A stretch of DNA of 64,000 nucleotides from Actinomycetota bacterium (GCA_014360655.1 JACIXC010000009.1:62001-126000), one strand, 5' to 3'; counted from the first letter of the stretch, positions 2,510-7,674 are shown. Notes: generated by a model from the letters alone, not told the origin. Made by a program: numbers and translations.

Positions 2510-2538
2510 TTGACCCGGGAACGAGGCCGGGGTAAAAT
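2510..2538 (+). promoter_or_regulatory. Sigma-70-type promoter of the TetR/RLP cassette
   Basis: A -35 box TTGACC (2510-2515) and a -10 box TAAAAT (2533-2538) are separated by exactly 17 bases. The predicted start falls near 2545, about 70 bases before the TetR gene. Confidence 0.7.
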
Positions 2539-2545
2539 ATAGTTA

Positions 2546-2563
2546 AGACTGACCGGTTGGTCT
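2546..2563 (+). promoter_or_regulatory. Palindromic operator overlapping the transcription start
   Basis: AGACTGACC/GGTTGGTCT is an 18-bp imperfect palindrome (7 of 9 pairs) immediately after the -10 box. The core GACCGGTTGGTC is the GACC...GGTC type often bound by TetR-family repressors. Its position over the start site, directly in front of a TetR gene, suggests autoregulation and control of the downstream cassette. That is inference; no binding data exist. Confidence 0.6.
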
Positions 2564-2614
2564 AAAGTTGGTAGCCGGGAAAACGGAAACGGTGGAAGCA
2601 GGGAAAGGGAGCTC

Positions 2615-3364
2615 ATGGAGGCCAGCAGGGGGACGCCGGCACGAAGGAAACCGCGGCCGGAGACGAGCGACGGCAGGCTGCCCGGGGCCAAATCGCTGGG
2701 CCTGCGCAGGAACCCCGCCAAGGACGAGCGGGAGCGGGCTTTCAAGGAGGCGGCCCTCAGGCTCTTTTCCTCCAGGGGTTACCACAAGACCACCATGTCG
2801 GAGGTCGCCCTGGAAGCTGGCTTCGGTAAGGGGACCCTCTACTGGTACTGGAAATCCAAGGAAGAGCTCTACTTCGACCTCGTCGAGGATTCGCACAGGG
2901 AGTTCGTCGCCCTGGTGAGGCGCGCGGCGGACATGGAAGGCGATGCCCTCGAGAAGCTTGGGTGGCTGGGGAGGGAGATGGTAGAGCTGCATTACCGCAA
3001 CCGCGAGTACACCAAGCTCTCCTGGAAGATGCGGGCGGAGGAACTGGAGACCTTCTCGCCCGAGTACGTGGAAAGGCTGCGCCGCAACAACGAGGAGACC
3101 AAGCGGGAGTTGCAGCGCATCGTCAGCCAGGGAATCGATGAAGGTTTACTGCCTGCCGGAGACCCCTACTACCTGACCTGCATGCTGCTGGGGCTGGTGG
3201 AGGGGATGGAGATACAGTGGCTGGAGGACCCCGAGGCCTTCGACCTGCGCAAGGCCATGGAGATGGTCCTCTCGCTGGTCTCCGCCGTGCGGCCTTACCT
3301 CGGAAGCGTTTCCCTTTCCGGGCAGGGTCCTGGCTCCGGCGGAAAAGCGCACATGGACGAGTGA
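2615..3364 (+). CDS. TetR/AcrR family transcriptional regulator
   Basis: 249 residues. A basic, low-complexity tail of about 40 residues precedes a typical TetR helix-turn-helix (residues 43-89), with the core SEVALEAGFGKGTLYWYWKSKEELY. The rest is the all-helical ligand-binding and dimerisation domain, with no recognisable ligand signature. The start is preceded by GGAAAGGGAG. It is the first gene after the promoter and palindromic operator, and the oxidoreductase gene starts 34 bases downstream, so it probably controls itself and the oxidoreductase-kinase-RuBisCO-like cassette. The inducer is presumably an intermediate of that pathway. Confidence 0.88.
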   Translation: MEASRGTPARRKPRPETSDGRLPGAKSLGLRRNPAKDERERAFKEAALRLFSSRGYHKTTMSEVALEAGFGKGTLYWYWKSKEELYFDLVEDSHREFVALVRRAADMEGDALEKLGWLGREMVELHYRNREYTKLSWKMRAEELETFSPEYVERLRRNNEETKRELQRIVSQGIDEGLLPAGDPYYLTCMLLGLVEGMEIQWLEDPEAFDLRKAMEMVLSLVSAVRPYLGSVSLSGQGPGSGGKAHMDE

Positions 3365-3398
3365 CGGTGGGCAGGGAAGAGTGACGGGAGGTGGCGAT

Positions 3399-4616
3399 AT
3401 GGCAAGGCTTTTGATCCTTGGAGGTTGCGGAGCGGTGGGGAGCACCGCGGCGAAGTACCTTGCGGCGGGCGATTACTTCGACGAGATCGTCATCGCGGAC
3501 CGCGAGGAAGAGGCGGCGCGGAAGCTGGCGGCGGAGCTGGGCGGCAGGGTGTCGGCGCGGGGCGTGAACGCGGACGATGCCGCCGACCTCAAGGAGCTCA
3601 TGGCCGGCTGCGACCTCGTGCTCAACTGCATCGGTCCCTTCTACCGTTACGGTCCGCCCATACTGCGGGCCGCCATCGAGGCGGGCGTTGACTACGTGGA
3701 TATCTGCGACGACATGGACGCCACCGAGGAGATGCTCGCCATGGACGAGGAGGCGAAGAAGGCCGGCATCTCCGCCCTCATAGGCATGGGGAGCTCCCCC
3801 GGCATGGCCAACCTGCTGGTGAAGTTCACGGCGCAGACCCTGCTGGACCAGGTGGATTCCGTGGACATCTACCACGCCCACGGCGGGGAGCCGGTGGAGG
3901 GCCCCGCGGTCATCAAGCATCGCTTCCATTCCATGGAAATAGATATCCCCATGTTCCTGGACGGTGAGTACAGGACGGTGCGCCTCTTCGAGGAGAGCGG
4001 CAGGGCCCTGGAGGAGGAGACCGACTTCCGCGACGTGGGCACCTACCCCGTCTACGCCTACCCCCACCCGGAGACCATAACCCTCCCCAAGTACATCAAG
4101 GGCGTGAAGAGGGTCACCAACCTGGGGCTGGTCATCCCCGTCTCGTACGCCAACCTAATCAAGGACATGGTCAGGCTGGGACTGACCTCCGACGAGCCCA
4201 TCGAGGTGCAGGGGCAGAAGGTCGTGCCCCGCGAGTTCGCCGTGGCCTTCGTCATCTCCCGGCGCGACGGGCTGCTCAGGGAGGCGGGGATAGATTCCCC
4301 GCGGGGTTGCCTGAAGATCGTGGTGAAGGGCGTGAAGGACGGCGAACCGCATACCTATATCTTCCAGATGTCCTCGAGCGGCATGGGCATGGGCGAGGGG
4401 ACGGGCATCCCCGCCGCGCTGGGGGCCATCGTCATGGGACAGGGAAAGATAACCCTGAAGGGCGTCTTCCCGCCCGAGGCCGGGGTGGAGCCCATGGACA
4501 TGATCAAGCTGGCCGGTGAGGTCATCAAGTCCTCCGGCAAGGGGGAGCGGGCCCCCATCTTCATCGAGCACGTGGACAAGGACGGCAACGTGGAGGCCAT
4601 GGACTTCAAGTTATAG
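3399..4616 (+). CDS. Saccharopine dehydrogenase-family NAD(P)-dependent oxidoreductase
   Basis: 405 residues. The N-terminal Rossmann motif GGCGAVGS (residues 8-15) begins the saccharopine dehydrogenase NADP-binding domain. DLVLNCIGPFYRYGPPILRA and VDYVDICDD (about 70-110) are characteristic of this family, and the C-terminal half is the family's alpha/beta catalytic domain. Start chosen at the ATG after GGGAGGTGGCGAT; the six-codon longer frame has no ribosome site. The family includes lysine-pathway, carboxynorspermidine and polyol/lipid-linked reductases, so the substrate cannot be named. Its place between TetR and a sugar kinase suggests it oxidises or reduces a sugar or sugar acid before phosphorylation. 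Confidence 0.82.
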   Translation: MARLLILGGCGAVGSTAAKYLAAGDYFDEIVIADREEEAARKLAAELGGRVSARGVNADDAADLKELMAGCDLVLNCIGPFYRYGPPILRAAIEAGVDYVDICDDMDATEEMLAMDEEAKKAGISALIGMGSSPGMANLLVKFTAQTLLDQVDSVDIYHAHGGEPVEGPAVIKHRFHSMEIDIPMFLDGEYRTVRLFEESGRALEEETDFRDVGTYPVYAYPHPETITLPKYIKGVKRVTNLGLVIPVSYANLIKDMVRLGLTSDEPIEVQGQKVVPREFAVAFVISRRDGLLREAGIDSPRGCLKIVVKGVKDGEPHTYIFQMSSSGMGMGEGTGIPAALGAIVMGQGKITLKGVFPPEAGVEPMDMIKLAGEVIKSSGKGERAPIFIEHVDKDGNVEAMDFKL

Positions 4617-4623
4617 GGATCAC

Positions 4624-4647
4624 TTGACATGGAAAATAATGCCATGT
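4624..4647 (+). promoter_or_regulatory. Inverted repeat with embedded TTGACA before the sugar kinase
   Basis: ACATGG (4627-4632) and CCATGT (4642-4647) form a perfect 6-bp inverted repeat around a 9-base A/T-rich spacer. A consensus -35 box TTGACA (4624-4629) overlaps the left arm. No convincing -10 lies 17 bases downstream, so this may be an operator or transcript hairpin rather than a full promoter. Confidence 0.35.
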
Positions 4648-4666
4648 AAGGGGAGGGAGGTGCACC

Positions 4667-6247
4667 TTGGGCGAGAAGTTCATCGTGAGCCACGACGTGG
4701 GCACGGGCGGGAGCAAGGCGGTACTCTGCGACCTGGAAGGGAGCATCATCGCCTCCAGCTTCGAGCCCTACCCCACCTCCTACCCGCGGGCCAACTGGGC
4801 GGAACAGGACCCGCGAGACTGGTGGAAGGCGGTCACCACGAGCACGCAACGCCTGCTCAAAGAAACCAGGATAAACCCGCGCCAGGTCATAGGCACGGGT
4901 TTCGCCACCCAGATGCTTGGGGTGCTGCCGGTGGACGCCTCCGGTGATCCCCTGCGCCCGGCCATCATCTGGATCGACAGCCGCGCCGACGAGCAGGCGG
5001 CGAGGATGGTGAGGAGGTTGGGAGGACCCCGCGTGCTCATGGCGCTGGCAGGTGCGGTCCCCTCGGGCAAGGACGTCGTGTGCAAGATCCTGTGGCTCAA
5101 GGAGAAGGAGCCGGACGTCTACGCCGCCACCCACAAGATACTAGACGTCACCGGCTACCTGGTCTACCGGGCGACTGGGAACATGACCATCGACCACACC
5201 GCCGCAGGCGCCACCGGCCTGCTCAAGAACAAGACGCGGGAGTGGGACACGCTTCTCGCCAGGCTGCTGGGTATCTCCCTCGAGAAGCTCCCCGAGGTGA
5301 AGAGCTCCGTGGAGGTGGTCGGCCTGCTCACGCGCGATGCCGCAGCGGAGATGGGGCTGGAGGCGGGGACTCCCGTGATCGGCGGCATGGGGGACATCCC
5401 CGCGGCGGCCACCGGTTCCGGCGCCCTGGAGAACGGGGACGCACACATCTACCTGGGCACTTCGGGATGGCTGGTGCTCTCGGTGGCCAAGCCCAAGAAC
5501 CTGGGCAGGAACGGCATCGCCTCCATAGCCTCGGCGGACCCCGGGATGTTCCTCATGATCGGGGAGACGGAGACGGCGGGGGCCTGCCTGAAATGGTTCG
5601 CGGACAACTTCGCCACCGCGGAGGAGCGGGAGAGGGCGGCGCGGAGCGAGGACGAGATGGCCATCTTCGCCGTCCTGGACGAGGTGGTGGAGGGGGTGGA
5701 GCCGGGCGCGAGGCGGCTGCTCTTCACCCCCTGGCTCTTCGGGGAGCGCGCCCCCATCACCGACACCACCCTGCGCGCCGCCTTCGTCAACCTCTCCCTG
5801 GGTCACGAGAGGGAACACATGCTGCGCGCCATCTACGAGGGGGTGGCCTACAACTTCCGCTGGCTGGTGGACGCCGTCGCCGGGGCTGGGTTCCCCTGCC
5901 GCACCCTGCGCGCCATCGGCGGGGGGGCGCGCAGCGACGTCTGGATGCAGATCATGGCCGACGTGACGCGGCGCCCTGTGGAGGCGGTGGCGGATCCCCA
6001 GGAGGCGGGGGCCATGGGGTGCGCCCTGGCGGTGGCGGTGGCCCTGCGCGAATACGGGAGCTACCGGGATTTGAAGAAGGTGATCAGGGTGCGCCGCGCC
6101 TTCGAGCCCGACCCGCAATGCTGCACCGAGTACGACGAGCTCTACGGCGTTTTCCGCGCCCTGTACGGAAACCTGACCGGGATATGCCGGCGCCTGAACG
6201 AGACGGGGCAGGCCTGCGAGGCGCCGGCCGGTGAGGCGAGGCCATGA
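4667..6247 (+). CDS. FGGY-family carbohydrate kinase (xylulokinase-like)
   Basis: 526 residues, with a TTG start fixed by GGGAGGGAGG five bases upstream. The N-terminal phosphate loop DVGTGGSK starts at residue 10. The ATP-domain features (IGGMGDIPAAATGSG, HIYLGTSGW, and the FGGY-like FTPWLFGERAPI) are all present, followed by GGGARSDVWMQIMADV, so the kinase looks complete and active. FGGY enzymes phosphorylate ketoses, polyols or sugar acids at a terminal hydroxyl. With an oxidoreductase before it and a RuBisCO-like protein after it, the likely product is a phosphorylated ketose or ketonate used by the RuBisCO-like enzyme. The exact substrate is not determinable here. Confidence 0.9.
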   Translation: MGEKFIVSHDVGTGGSKAVLCDLEGSIIASSFEPYPTSYPRANWAEQDPRDWWKAVTTSTQRLLKETRINPRQVIGTGFATQMLGVLPVDASGDPLRPAIIWIDSRADEQAARMVRRLGGPRVLMALAGAVPSGKDVVCKILWLKEKEPDVYAATHKILDVTGYLVYRATGNMTIDHTAAGATGLLKNKTREWDTLLARLLGISLEKLPEVKSSVEVVGLLTRDAAAEMGLEAGTPVIGGMGDIPAAATGSGALENGDAHIYLGTSGWLVLSVAKPKNLGRNGIASIASADPGMFLMIGETETAGACLKWFADNFATAEERERAARSEDEMAIFAVLDEVVEGVEPGARRLLFTPWLFGERAPITDTTLRAAFVNLSLGHEREHMLRAIYEGVAYNFRWLVDAVAGAGFPCRTLRAIGGGARSDVWMQIMADVTRRPVEAVADPQEAGAMGCALAVAVALREYGSYRDLKKVIRVRRAFEPDPQCCTEYDELYGVFRALYGNLTGICRRLNETGQACEAPAGEARP

Positions 6248-6327
6248 GGACAAGGCCGTGGGAATGAGGTCATGAAAAACAGAACCCTGATCCTAACGGG
6301 TACGACGAGAGAAGAGGAGTGATGAGC

Positions 6328-7674
6328 ATGCTTTACTACGAGGCCCAGCCCAAGGCCCTCCCCGAGGGCATCGACTACGATGACTTCATCGTGGCCACCT
6401 ACTACGCCGCCCTTCCCCGCGACATGATCATGTATTACCTGGCGCCCTTCCTGGCCATAGAGCAGTCCACGGGTACCTGGACGCCGGTCCCCGGGGAGAC
6501 ACCCGAGGTGAGGGCAAAGCACGTGGCCAAGGTCATCGGCATCCACGAGGTCCCCTTCTACGAGTTCGAGGTGCCGCGGGGGGTGGAGGAGCGCACCTAC
6601 GTGGTGCAGGTCGCCTTCCCCTTCCGCAACATCGAGCACCAGATCCCCATGCTGCTCACCGCAGTAGTGGGGAACATCTCCATGGGAGGGAAGATCAAGC
6701 TCATCGACCTATACCTGCCGAAGAAGTATACGGAGGGGTTCCAGGGACCGAGGTTCGGCATCGACGGCATCTACGAGGCACTGGGGCTCGAGGAGCGGCG
6801 GCCCCTGCTCAACAACATGATCAAGCCCTGCACCGGGTATTCCTGCGAGGTGGGGGAGAAGCTCTTCTACGAGGCGGCGCTGGGCGGTTGCGACGTCATC
6901 AAGGACGACGAGCTCATCGCGGACATGGCCTTCAACCGCGTGGAGGACCGCGTGAAGGCCTACATGGCCATGGAGAAGCGCGTCTACGAGGAGACGGGCG
7001 AGCACACCCTGTACACGGTGAACGTCTCGGACAACATCCCCAGGATGTTCGAGGTGGCCAGGCGCGCCGTGGACGCCGGCGCCAACGCCATCATGGTCAA
7101 CTACCTGGCGGTGGGGCTTCCCGCGCTGCAGGCCCTGGCCGAGGATCCGGACATAAACGTGCCCATCCTGGCGCACATGGATTGCGCCGGCGCTCTCTAC
7201 GAGTCGCCCATCTCGGGCATCGCCTCCCACCTGGTGCTGGCCAAGCTGCCGCGCCTGGCGGGCGCGGACGCCATCGTCTTCCCTGCCCCCTACGGGAAGG
7301 CGCCCTACCTCAAGGACCGCTTCGTGTATACCGCGGACGTCATGCATTACCCCATGCACGACATCAAGCCAACCATGCCCATGCCCTCCGGGGGGATCAC
7401 CCCGGAGATGGTGCCCACCTGCGTTGCCGATATCGGCAGGGAGATCATGATCGGGTCCGGGGGCGGCATACACGCACATCCCATGGGCCCGGCCGCGGGC
7501 GCACGCGCCTTCCGGCAGGCCATAGACGCCACCATGCGGGGTATACCCCTGCACGAGTACGCGCGGGAGCACCAGGAGCTGGCCGTGGCCCTGGGGCTGT
7601 GGGAAGGCTTCTTCCAGGAGACCACGGCCGATAGCGGCATCGAGGCCAAGGCCCACAAGCTGGGGGAGAATTAG
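6328..7674 (+). CDS. RuBisCO-like protein (form IV-type large subunit homologue)
   Basis: 448 residues from the ATG eight bases after AGAGGAG; ATG 6322 and GTG 6319 are possible but too close to that site. The N-terminal domain keeps the RuBisCO loop EQSTGTWT (E45, W51) and VVGN (N116). The barrel has IKP (K166, equivalent to K175), the carbamylation/metal motif DVIKDDE (K192, D194, E195, equivalent to K201/D203/E204), H283 (H294), K324 (K334), PSGG (S354, equivalent to S379) and GSGGG. By eye K177 is Cys168, R295 is Met284 and H327 is Val317. Loss of these bisphosphate-binding and catalytic residues argues against RuBP carboxylation and for an enolase, isomerase or decarboxylase on another phosphorylated sugar. 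The clade is unassigned. Confidence 0.88.
   Translation: MLYYEAQPKALPEGIDYDDFIVATYYAALPRDMIMYYLAPFLAIEQSTGTWTPVPGETPEVRAKHVAKVIGIHEVPFYEFEVPRGVEERTYVVQVAFPFRNIEHQIPMLLTAVVGNISMGGKIKLIDLYLPKKYTEGFQGPRFGIDGIYEALGLEERRPLLNNMIKPCTGYSCEVGEKLFYEAALGGCDVIKDDELIADMAFNRVEDRVKAYMAMEKRVYEETGEHTLYTVNVSDNIPRMFEVARRAVDAGANAIMVNYLAVGLPALQALAEDPDINVPILAHMDCAGALYESPISGIASHLVLAKLPRLAGADAIVFPAPYGKAPYLKDRFVYTADVMHYPMHDIKPTMPMPSGGITPEMVPTCVADIGREIMIGSGGGIHAHPMGPAAGARAFRQAIDATMRGIPLHEYAREHQELAVALGLWEGFFQETTADSGIEAKAHKLGEN

Follow-up and report, generated by a model that had tools for sequence, protein, structure and literature searches.

The stretch of DNA analysed here, called the window, comprises 64,000 nucleotides (contig C9:62001-126000 of a 2.97 Mb genome) and contains an operon of four genes on the + strand: a TetR gene, an oxidoreductase, an FGGY kinase and a RuBisCO-like protein (RLP), all present as open reading frames. 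The RLP, the only RuBisCO homologue in this genome, and the FGGY kinase are by gene content an inseparable pair. The chances are about even that the operon is a catabolic module, repressed by TetR and centred on an RLP of a new clade, in which a mono-phosphorylated ketose would be isomerised or epimerised and then cleaved by an aldolase. The organism is a Solincola-type actinobacterium, its closest named relatives being Candidatus Solincola metagenome-assembled genomes and other uncultured Actinomycetota. The families and order of the four genes had been named in an earlier note made from the sequence of the window, and Pfam matches for each family bear them out (Table 1).

The comparison within the class comprised 31 genomes, and 28 RLP loci were fetched and aligned. 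Families f1 to f7 are anonymous labels from the genome search, and the window belongs to f1. The RLP was identified in 29 of the 31 genomes, and in all 29, which cover 7 families, the FGGY kinase is located directly upstream on the same strand (the 28 fetched loci plus G017, where the kinase ends ~50 bp before the RLP). Exceptions are G001, 99% complete, and G006, in which the RLP, this kinase family and the oxidoreductase are all absent together. The earlier note had proposed the kinase as the dedicated partner of the RLP and a neighbourhood analysis as a way to check it; this adjacency and the joint absence in two genomes speak for the proposal. The genome G040, from another class of the phylum, presents the order RLP-oxidoreductase-kinase with identities of 66, 55 and 47%, and since the three genes are kept there in rearranged order a functional tie among them is supported. 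Between the window RLP and that of its congener G017, 84 synonymous and 14 non-synonymous codon differences were counted, which fits purifying selection. Genes for an HNH endonuclease, an aminotransferase and DUF3786 proteins beside the RLP in f4-f7 were judged unrelated. In G019 (L056, L044; G019:C106 3361-3626) short tandem partial copies of the last 45 RLP residues were identified just downstream of the gene, and they are either a duplication or an assembly artefact.

The active site of the RLP is described in spinach RuBisCO numbering unless stated otherwise. The PF00016 match and the equivalents of K201, D203 and E204 place the protein in the RuBisCO superfamily. Fifteen of the 18 RuBisCO active-site residues are kept in all 28 loci: E60, T65, W66, N123, K175, K201, D203, E204, H294, K334, S379, G380, G381, G403 and G404. 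The other three are replaced, also in 28 of 28: K177 by Cys, R295 by Met and H327 by Val. The residues given in the earlier note (K192, D194 and E195 for the metal motif; Cys168, Met284 and Val317 for the replacements) are correct when counted from the ATG at position 6328; with the GTG at 6319 as the start they become K195, D197, E198, C171, M287 and V320, and a third in-frame start is the ATG at 6322. The loss of the second-phosphate residues (R295 and H327), first noticed in the window protein, extends to every aligned locus. With these two lost and S379, T65, W66, G381, G403 and G404 kept, one phosphate can be held and the second one of ribulose 1,5-bisphosphate (RuBP) hardly. As the protein still has the carbamylated Lys, H294, K175 and the loop-6 residue K334, metal-assisted proton abstraction beside a ketone is expected. 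An AlphaFold model of the RLP, built with 12 sequences of the class, had a mean pLDDT of 60.5 and was too poor to use.

The FGGY kinase is XylB-like (TIGR01312, 341 bits) and falls below the XylB cut-off of 380; a true XylB paralogue, identified in G002, reaches 549 bits. The kinase shares with XylB the whole FGGY fold family, the catalytic Asp (D233 equivalent) and Met77. Its signature in the alignment, M-[L/I]-K-D-[V/I]-W, is nearly invariant in the class and close to it in G040, with Met, Leu/Ile, Lys, Asp and Val/Ile at the positions where XylB has Met, His, Gly, Asp and Asn. The differences from XylB are thus His78 to Leu/Ile (Met-Leu instead of Met-His) and Asn234 to Val/Ile, plus a Lys at the position of GlpK Tyr135. 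Specificity positions of this kind in FGGY kinases have been described (PMC3245297). As the specificity residues are changed and the score is below the XylB cut-off, xylulose is an improbable substrate, and one end of the actual substrate is probably less polar. Judged by their residues, the kinase and the RLP have both turned non-polar in the region expected to face the far end of the substrate.

The trees were sampled from Actinomycetota, plasmids and a few PDB sequences, without form II, IV-GOS, IV-AMC and Aful. In both trees the RLPs of the class join with that of G040 in a single clade (100/100), whose sister group consists of RLPs from a different actinobacterial family (L103-L105; 100/95); L110-L119 come next. 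MtnW, the OiaX/DUF1537-linked RLPs, IV-Photo and forms I/III are all separate from the clade of the window RLP, and joining it to MtnW was rejected in the approximately unbiased test (p-AU 7.7e-54). By trees and test the RLP belongs to none of the sampled clades with an assigned function, MtnW among them, which favours the reading of the earlier note. It is also below every curated cut-off, the closest curated label being MtnW. IV-Photo proteins have Arg334 and Glu123 where the window RLP has Lys and Asn, and 1tel and 2qyg belong to a separate clade. The cupin-linked RLPs (the 5'-methylthioadenosine (MTA)-isoprenoid shunt type, as L139) differ in active-site residues, and the window operon has no cupin gene. 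In the RLP of G383 (L125 1877-3187, - strand) K177 (Cys) is the only one of the listed RuBisCO active-site residues to be replaced; this RLP is located just downstream of an S-adenosylhomocysteine (SAH)-hydrolase-like gene, and its closest solved proteins are IV-Photo. No paper on RuBisCO in Geothermincolia or on apionate RLPs was found in the literature searched.

The sister clade (f11a; L103-L105 and L213) is ~50% identical to the window RLP and presents Cys177, Leu295, Val/Ile327 and Lys334. In place of the partners of the window RLP, L103 contains a DeoC-family aldolase, then an isomerase-like protein whose closest model, with a score below its cut-off, is sulfoquinovose isomerase, then a rhamnulokinase-like FGGY kinase, a class II aldolase and the RLP. 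In L213 a PfkB kinase is located ~1 kb upstream of the RLP. In L214, past one opposite-strand gene, a LacI regulator, a sugar ABC importer, an L-rhamnose mutarotase, a short-chain dehydrogenase/reductase and a rhamnonate-dehydratase-like enzyme were identified.

In nearly all f1-f3 loci the TetR gene is preceded by the arrangement TTGAC/-10/TAAGACyGACCGGTtGGTCTAA, and in most related loci TTGAC and an AT-rich -10 stand at equal distance before the operator. A whole-genome pattern search identified the 18-bp site at the RLP locus in 16 of the 18 genomes of f1-f3, generally one site per genome with few exceptions; further copies elsewhere were four in all, and the reversed control pattern had matches in only 2 of the 31 genomes. 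Because the site is found at the RLP locus, almost nowhere else and rarely in the control, the promoter and overlapping palindrome that the earlier note had pointed out exceed chance, and the TetR/operator arrangement is conserved in the f1-f3 loci (16 genomes). The palindrome presumably behaves as an operator and putative TetR binding site, and it co-occurs with the TetR gene as is characteristic of a TetR repressor with its cognate operator. Locus comparison and the pattern search found neither this TetR gene nor the 18-bp site in f4-f7, and the TetR protein reached no NCBIfam equivalog cut-off. One-mismatch copies of the operator off the RLP locus were identified at L206 5922 (G023) and L207 5585 (G029), with another TetR-like gene directly downstream of the latter.

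In G020 and G021 a second operator copy was identified just before a class II aldolase gene, itself immediately upstream of the TetR gene. As these genus g3 genomes have one operator before the aldolase and one before TetR (L052 11570 and 12436; L055 2122 and 2971), the aldolase is tied to the regulon and, on this operator pattern, appears to belong to it in the two genomes. The four-gene cassette of the earlier note stands; the note had left out this aldolase, a member of the regulon in two genomes. Orthologues (~74-90% identical) were identified in the other sampled f1/f2 genomes, including contig C8 of the window genome. The best model of the protein is 3-oxo-tetronate-4-phosphate decarboxylase (138-148 bits, cut-off 250), and all its NCBIfam labels are below cut-off.

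The oxidoreductase is found in the RLP operon of f1 and G040 only, although in G023 at a distance of 7 kb. The RLP operons of f2-f7 lack it; several genomes of f2-f5 have it at other loci, paired with an FGGY paralogue. Its PF03435 match (cut-off 25.1) makes it a member of the saccharopine dehydrogenase family; the carboxynorspermidine synthase model gave 58 bits with a cut-off of 800, and the C-terminal domain 30.2 bits, just below the cut-off of 31. By its distribution it seems to be an optional partner, less tightly bound than the kinase. The route of the earlier note (oxidation, phosphorylation, then the RLP) keeps its dedicated kinase and loses the oxidoreductase as a fixed member; an obligatory oxidise-first step lacks support because the enzyme is in the RLP operon only in f1 and G040. 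In f1 one more set of FGGY paralogues (L174 5599-8770, L171-L176) has SCP2-like and DUF1638 neighbours. The neighbours of FGGY paralogues (SCP2-like, DUF1638, RadC, YchF and others) gave no consistent substrate clue.

The substrate of the RLP would be a mono-phosphorylated, probably deoxy ketose, because the second-phosphate site is lost and both enzymes are non-polar at its far end. In the proposed pathway the FGGY kinase would phosphorylate a ketose (or a related polyol or sugar acid) with a non-polar end, for example a deoxy sugar. The RLP would bind the single phosphate in the retained P1 site, abstract a proton via the Mg/carbamate machinery and shift the carbonyl, acting as isomerase or epimerase, and the class II aldolase would split the resulting ketose phosphate into dihydroxyacetone phosphate (DHAP) and an aldehyde. 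Where the saccharopine-dehydrogenase-like enzyme occurs, it would carry out an NAD(P)-linked redox step before phosphorylation, and an inducer, probably a pathway intermediate, would free the operator from the repressor. A kinase-isomerase-aldolase logic has been described for 5-deoxyribose (PMC6079011). The sugar-catabolic reading of the earlier note gains from the dedicated kinase and the loss of the phosphate site; the sugar context of the sister clade had not been visible to it. We give a little less than an even chance to a reaction as yet unseen in the RuBisCO superfamily, in a pathway conserved class-wide: the product of the FGGY kinase, a ketose or sugar acid with a single phosphate, would be isomerised, epimerised or decarboxylated by the RLPs of this clade.

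Several points weigh against the proposed pathway. Neither the kinase nor the RLP reaches any NCBIfam equivalog cut-off, which leaves the substrate putative. The class II aldolase is under the operator in 2 genomes only and apart from the locus elsewhere, and it may not be an aldolase because its best model is a decarboxylase. No sugar importer was identified near the window operon, and the RLP of L214, at a contig end, is split from its sugar operon by the opposite-strand gene. Decarboxylation also enters into consideration because K334, lost in MtnW, is kept in OiaX too.

Decarboxylation is indeed the main rival to an isomerase or epimerase, although we consider it unlikely. In such a sugar-acid route the oxidoreductase would yield a 3-oxo acid, the FGGY kinase would phosphorylate it and the RLP, like OiaX, would decarboxylate it to a ketose phosphate for the aldolase. 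This is consistent with K334, E60 and N123, retained as in RuBisCO and most OiaX/DUF1537-linked RLPs and not as in MtnW, with the oxidoreductase within the RLP operon of f1 and G040, and with the Lys at the third signature position of the kinase, which could bind a carboxylate. However, known RLP decarboxylases pair with DUF1537 kinases, not FGGY (such kinases lie beside L123, L138, L142 and L143, in a clade distinct from that of the window); the R295 kept in DUF1537-linked RLPs is Met here; the OiaX model (NF042437) gave 185 bits with a cut-off of 700; and the operons of f2-f7 have no oxidoreductase. Somewhat less likely still is a role in MTA or 5'-deoxyadenosine disposal, with 5-methylthioribulose-1-phosphate, 5-deoxyribulose-1-phosphate or kinase-made analogues as RLP substrates. 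MTA phosphorylase (MTAP)-like genes occur in 30 of the 31 genomes (27 over cut-off) and MtnA in 28, a non-polar end group suits the Met/Val pocket, and the nearest curated model of the RLP is MtnW (PRK09549, 355.7 bits, cut-off 409). This role appears weakened by the gene content of G001, nearly complete, with MtnA and MTAP but no RLP, and of f4-f6, where a class II aldolase beside MtnA is enough for a DHAP shunt; in addition, MtnA is with SAH hydrolase elsewhere in the window genome, and MTA routes via MTAP require no FGGY kinase. The class II aldolase-family gene of L150 3036-4737, which directly adjoins MtnA in G001 and f4-f6, likely forms a DHAP-shunt pair with it.

The two classical functions are both highly improbable. 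The closest solved structures by sequence are MtnW, the classical methionine-salvage enolase, but its Lys123, which we take to be the general base, is replaced by Asn (Asn119 in the window protein; Lys in 2oek, 4nas and Priestia MtnW), E60 and K334 are kept, and the second MtnW model, like PRK09549, is below cut-off (307 bits, cut-off 513.6). No acireductone dioxygenase (ARD), needed for classical methionine salvage, was over cut-off in the 31 genomes. As both this Lys and ARD are absent, the RLP is not expected to be a methionine-salvage enolase, and with the separate clade and the scores this assignment was ruled out. A true RuBP carboxylase or carbon-fixing variant would agree with the 15 active-site residues kept, but not with the replacement of K177, R295 and H327 in all members, the position outside forms I/III in the tree and the scores below the form III and large-subunit cut-offs (TIGR03326 and PRK04208; 265 bits with the form III model, cut-off 497).

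Table 1. Features of the RLP operon in window coordinates.
Feature	Coordinates	Strand or position	Evidence
Promoter (-35 TTGACC 2510-2515, 17 nt spacer, -10 TAAAAT 2533-2538)	2510..2538	+	consensus scan, 10/12 matches
Operator palindrome AGACTGACCGGTTGGTCT, 18 bp, putative TetR site	2546..2563	just 3' of -10	comparative conservation
TetR-family regulator	2615..3364	+	PF00440 (TetR_N) 66.3 bits
Saccharopine-dehydrogenase-family NAD(P) oxidoreductase, accessory member	3399..4616	+	PF03435 (Sacchrp_dh_NADP) 88.5 bits
FGGY carbohydrate kinase	4667..6247	+	PF00370/PF02782 (FGGY_N/FGGY_C) 189/120 bits
RLP	6322..7674	+	PF00016 (RuBisCO_large) 159 bits, cut-off 30.1

In the surroundings of the operon, positions 67-1517 contain the C-terminal portion of a histidine kinase and, after it, an FMN-reductase-like gene, a pair also identified upstream of the RLP operon in many f1 loci and G016, with a PAS histidine kinase in L205. 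Divergent from the operon is an ATP-binding SGGKDS protein (1530-2504, - strand), retained in several f1 loci and presumably, from inspection by eye, diphthine-ammonia-ligase-like. Downstream is a PEP carboxylase of archaeal type in an actinobacterial genome (8307-9842; 498 bits to TIGR02751). It was rejected as an operon member because it follows the RLP only after ~630 bp and few loci have the two side by side.

Few reactions have been assigned to RuBisCO-like proteins, and the mutual origin of RuBisCO and RLPs is debated. The always-present kinase gives a direct handle, as its product should be the substrate of the RLP. Solving this would add a reaction and a pathway and would show how a non-polar pocket takes the place of one phosphate site within the superfamily. 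Automatic naming would be corrected as well, as the RLP data contradict the closest curated label, that of methionine-salvage enolase.

Among known systems, MtnW/YkrW (2,3-diketo-5-methylthiopentyl-1-phosphate enolase) shares with the window RLP the RuBisCO fold family, the carbamyl-Lys/Asp/Glu metal site and the loss of the second-phosphate site. It differs in Lys123, Gly60, Ser334 and Pro295 (Asn, Glu, Lys and Met in the window RLP), in its gene neighbours and in the ARD missing from this class. The OiaX/DUF1537-kinase-linked RLPs of apionate and acid-sugar pathways are likewise located beside a dedicated kinase in a catabolic operon and keep the loop-6 Lys, whereas their kinase is DUF1537 instead of FGGY, R295 is kept and they form another clade (100/100). 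A related form IV protein of unknown function was reported in a sister lineage, Ca. Hakubanella (PMC7325909). Together with L110-L119 it belongs to the same phylum and a neighbouring clade with a sugar-type context (DeoR and isomerase-like genes), but these proteins are 41-47% identical to the window RLP, present Tyr, Met or Leu, and Thr or Ser at 295, 327 and 334, and had no adjacent FGGY kinase, the partner that accompanies the RLP throughout the class studied here.

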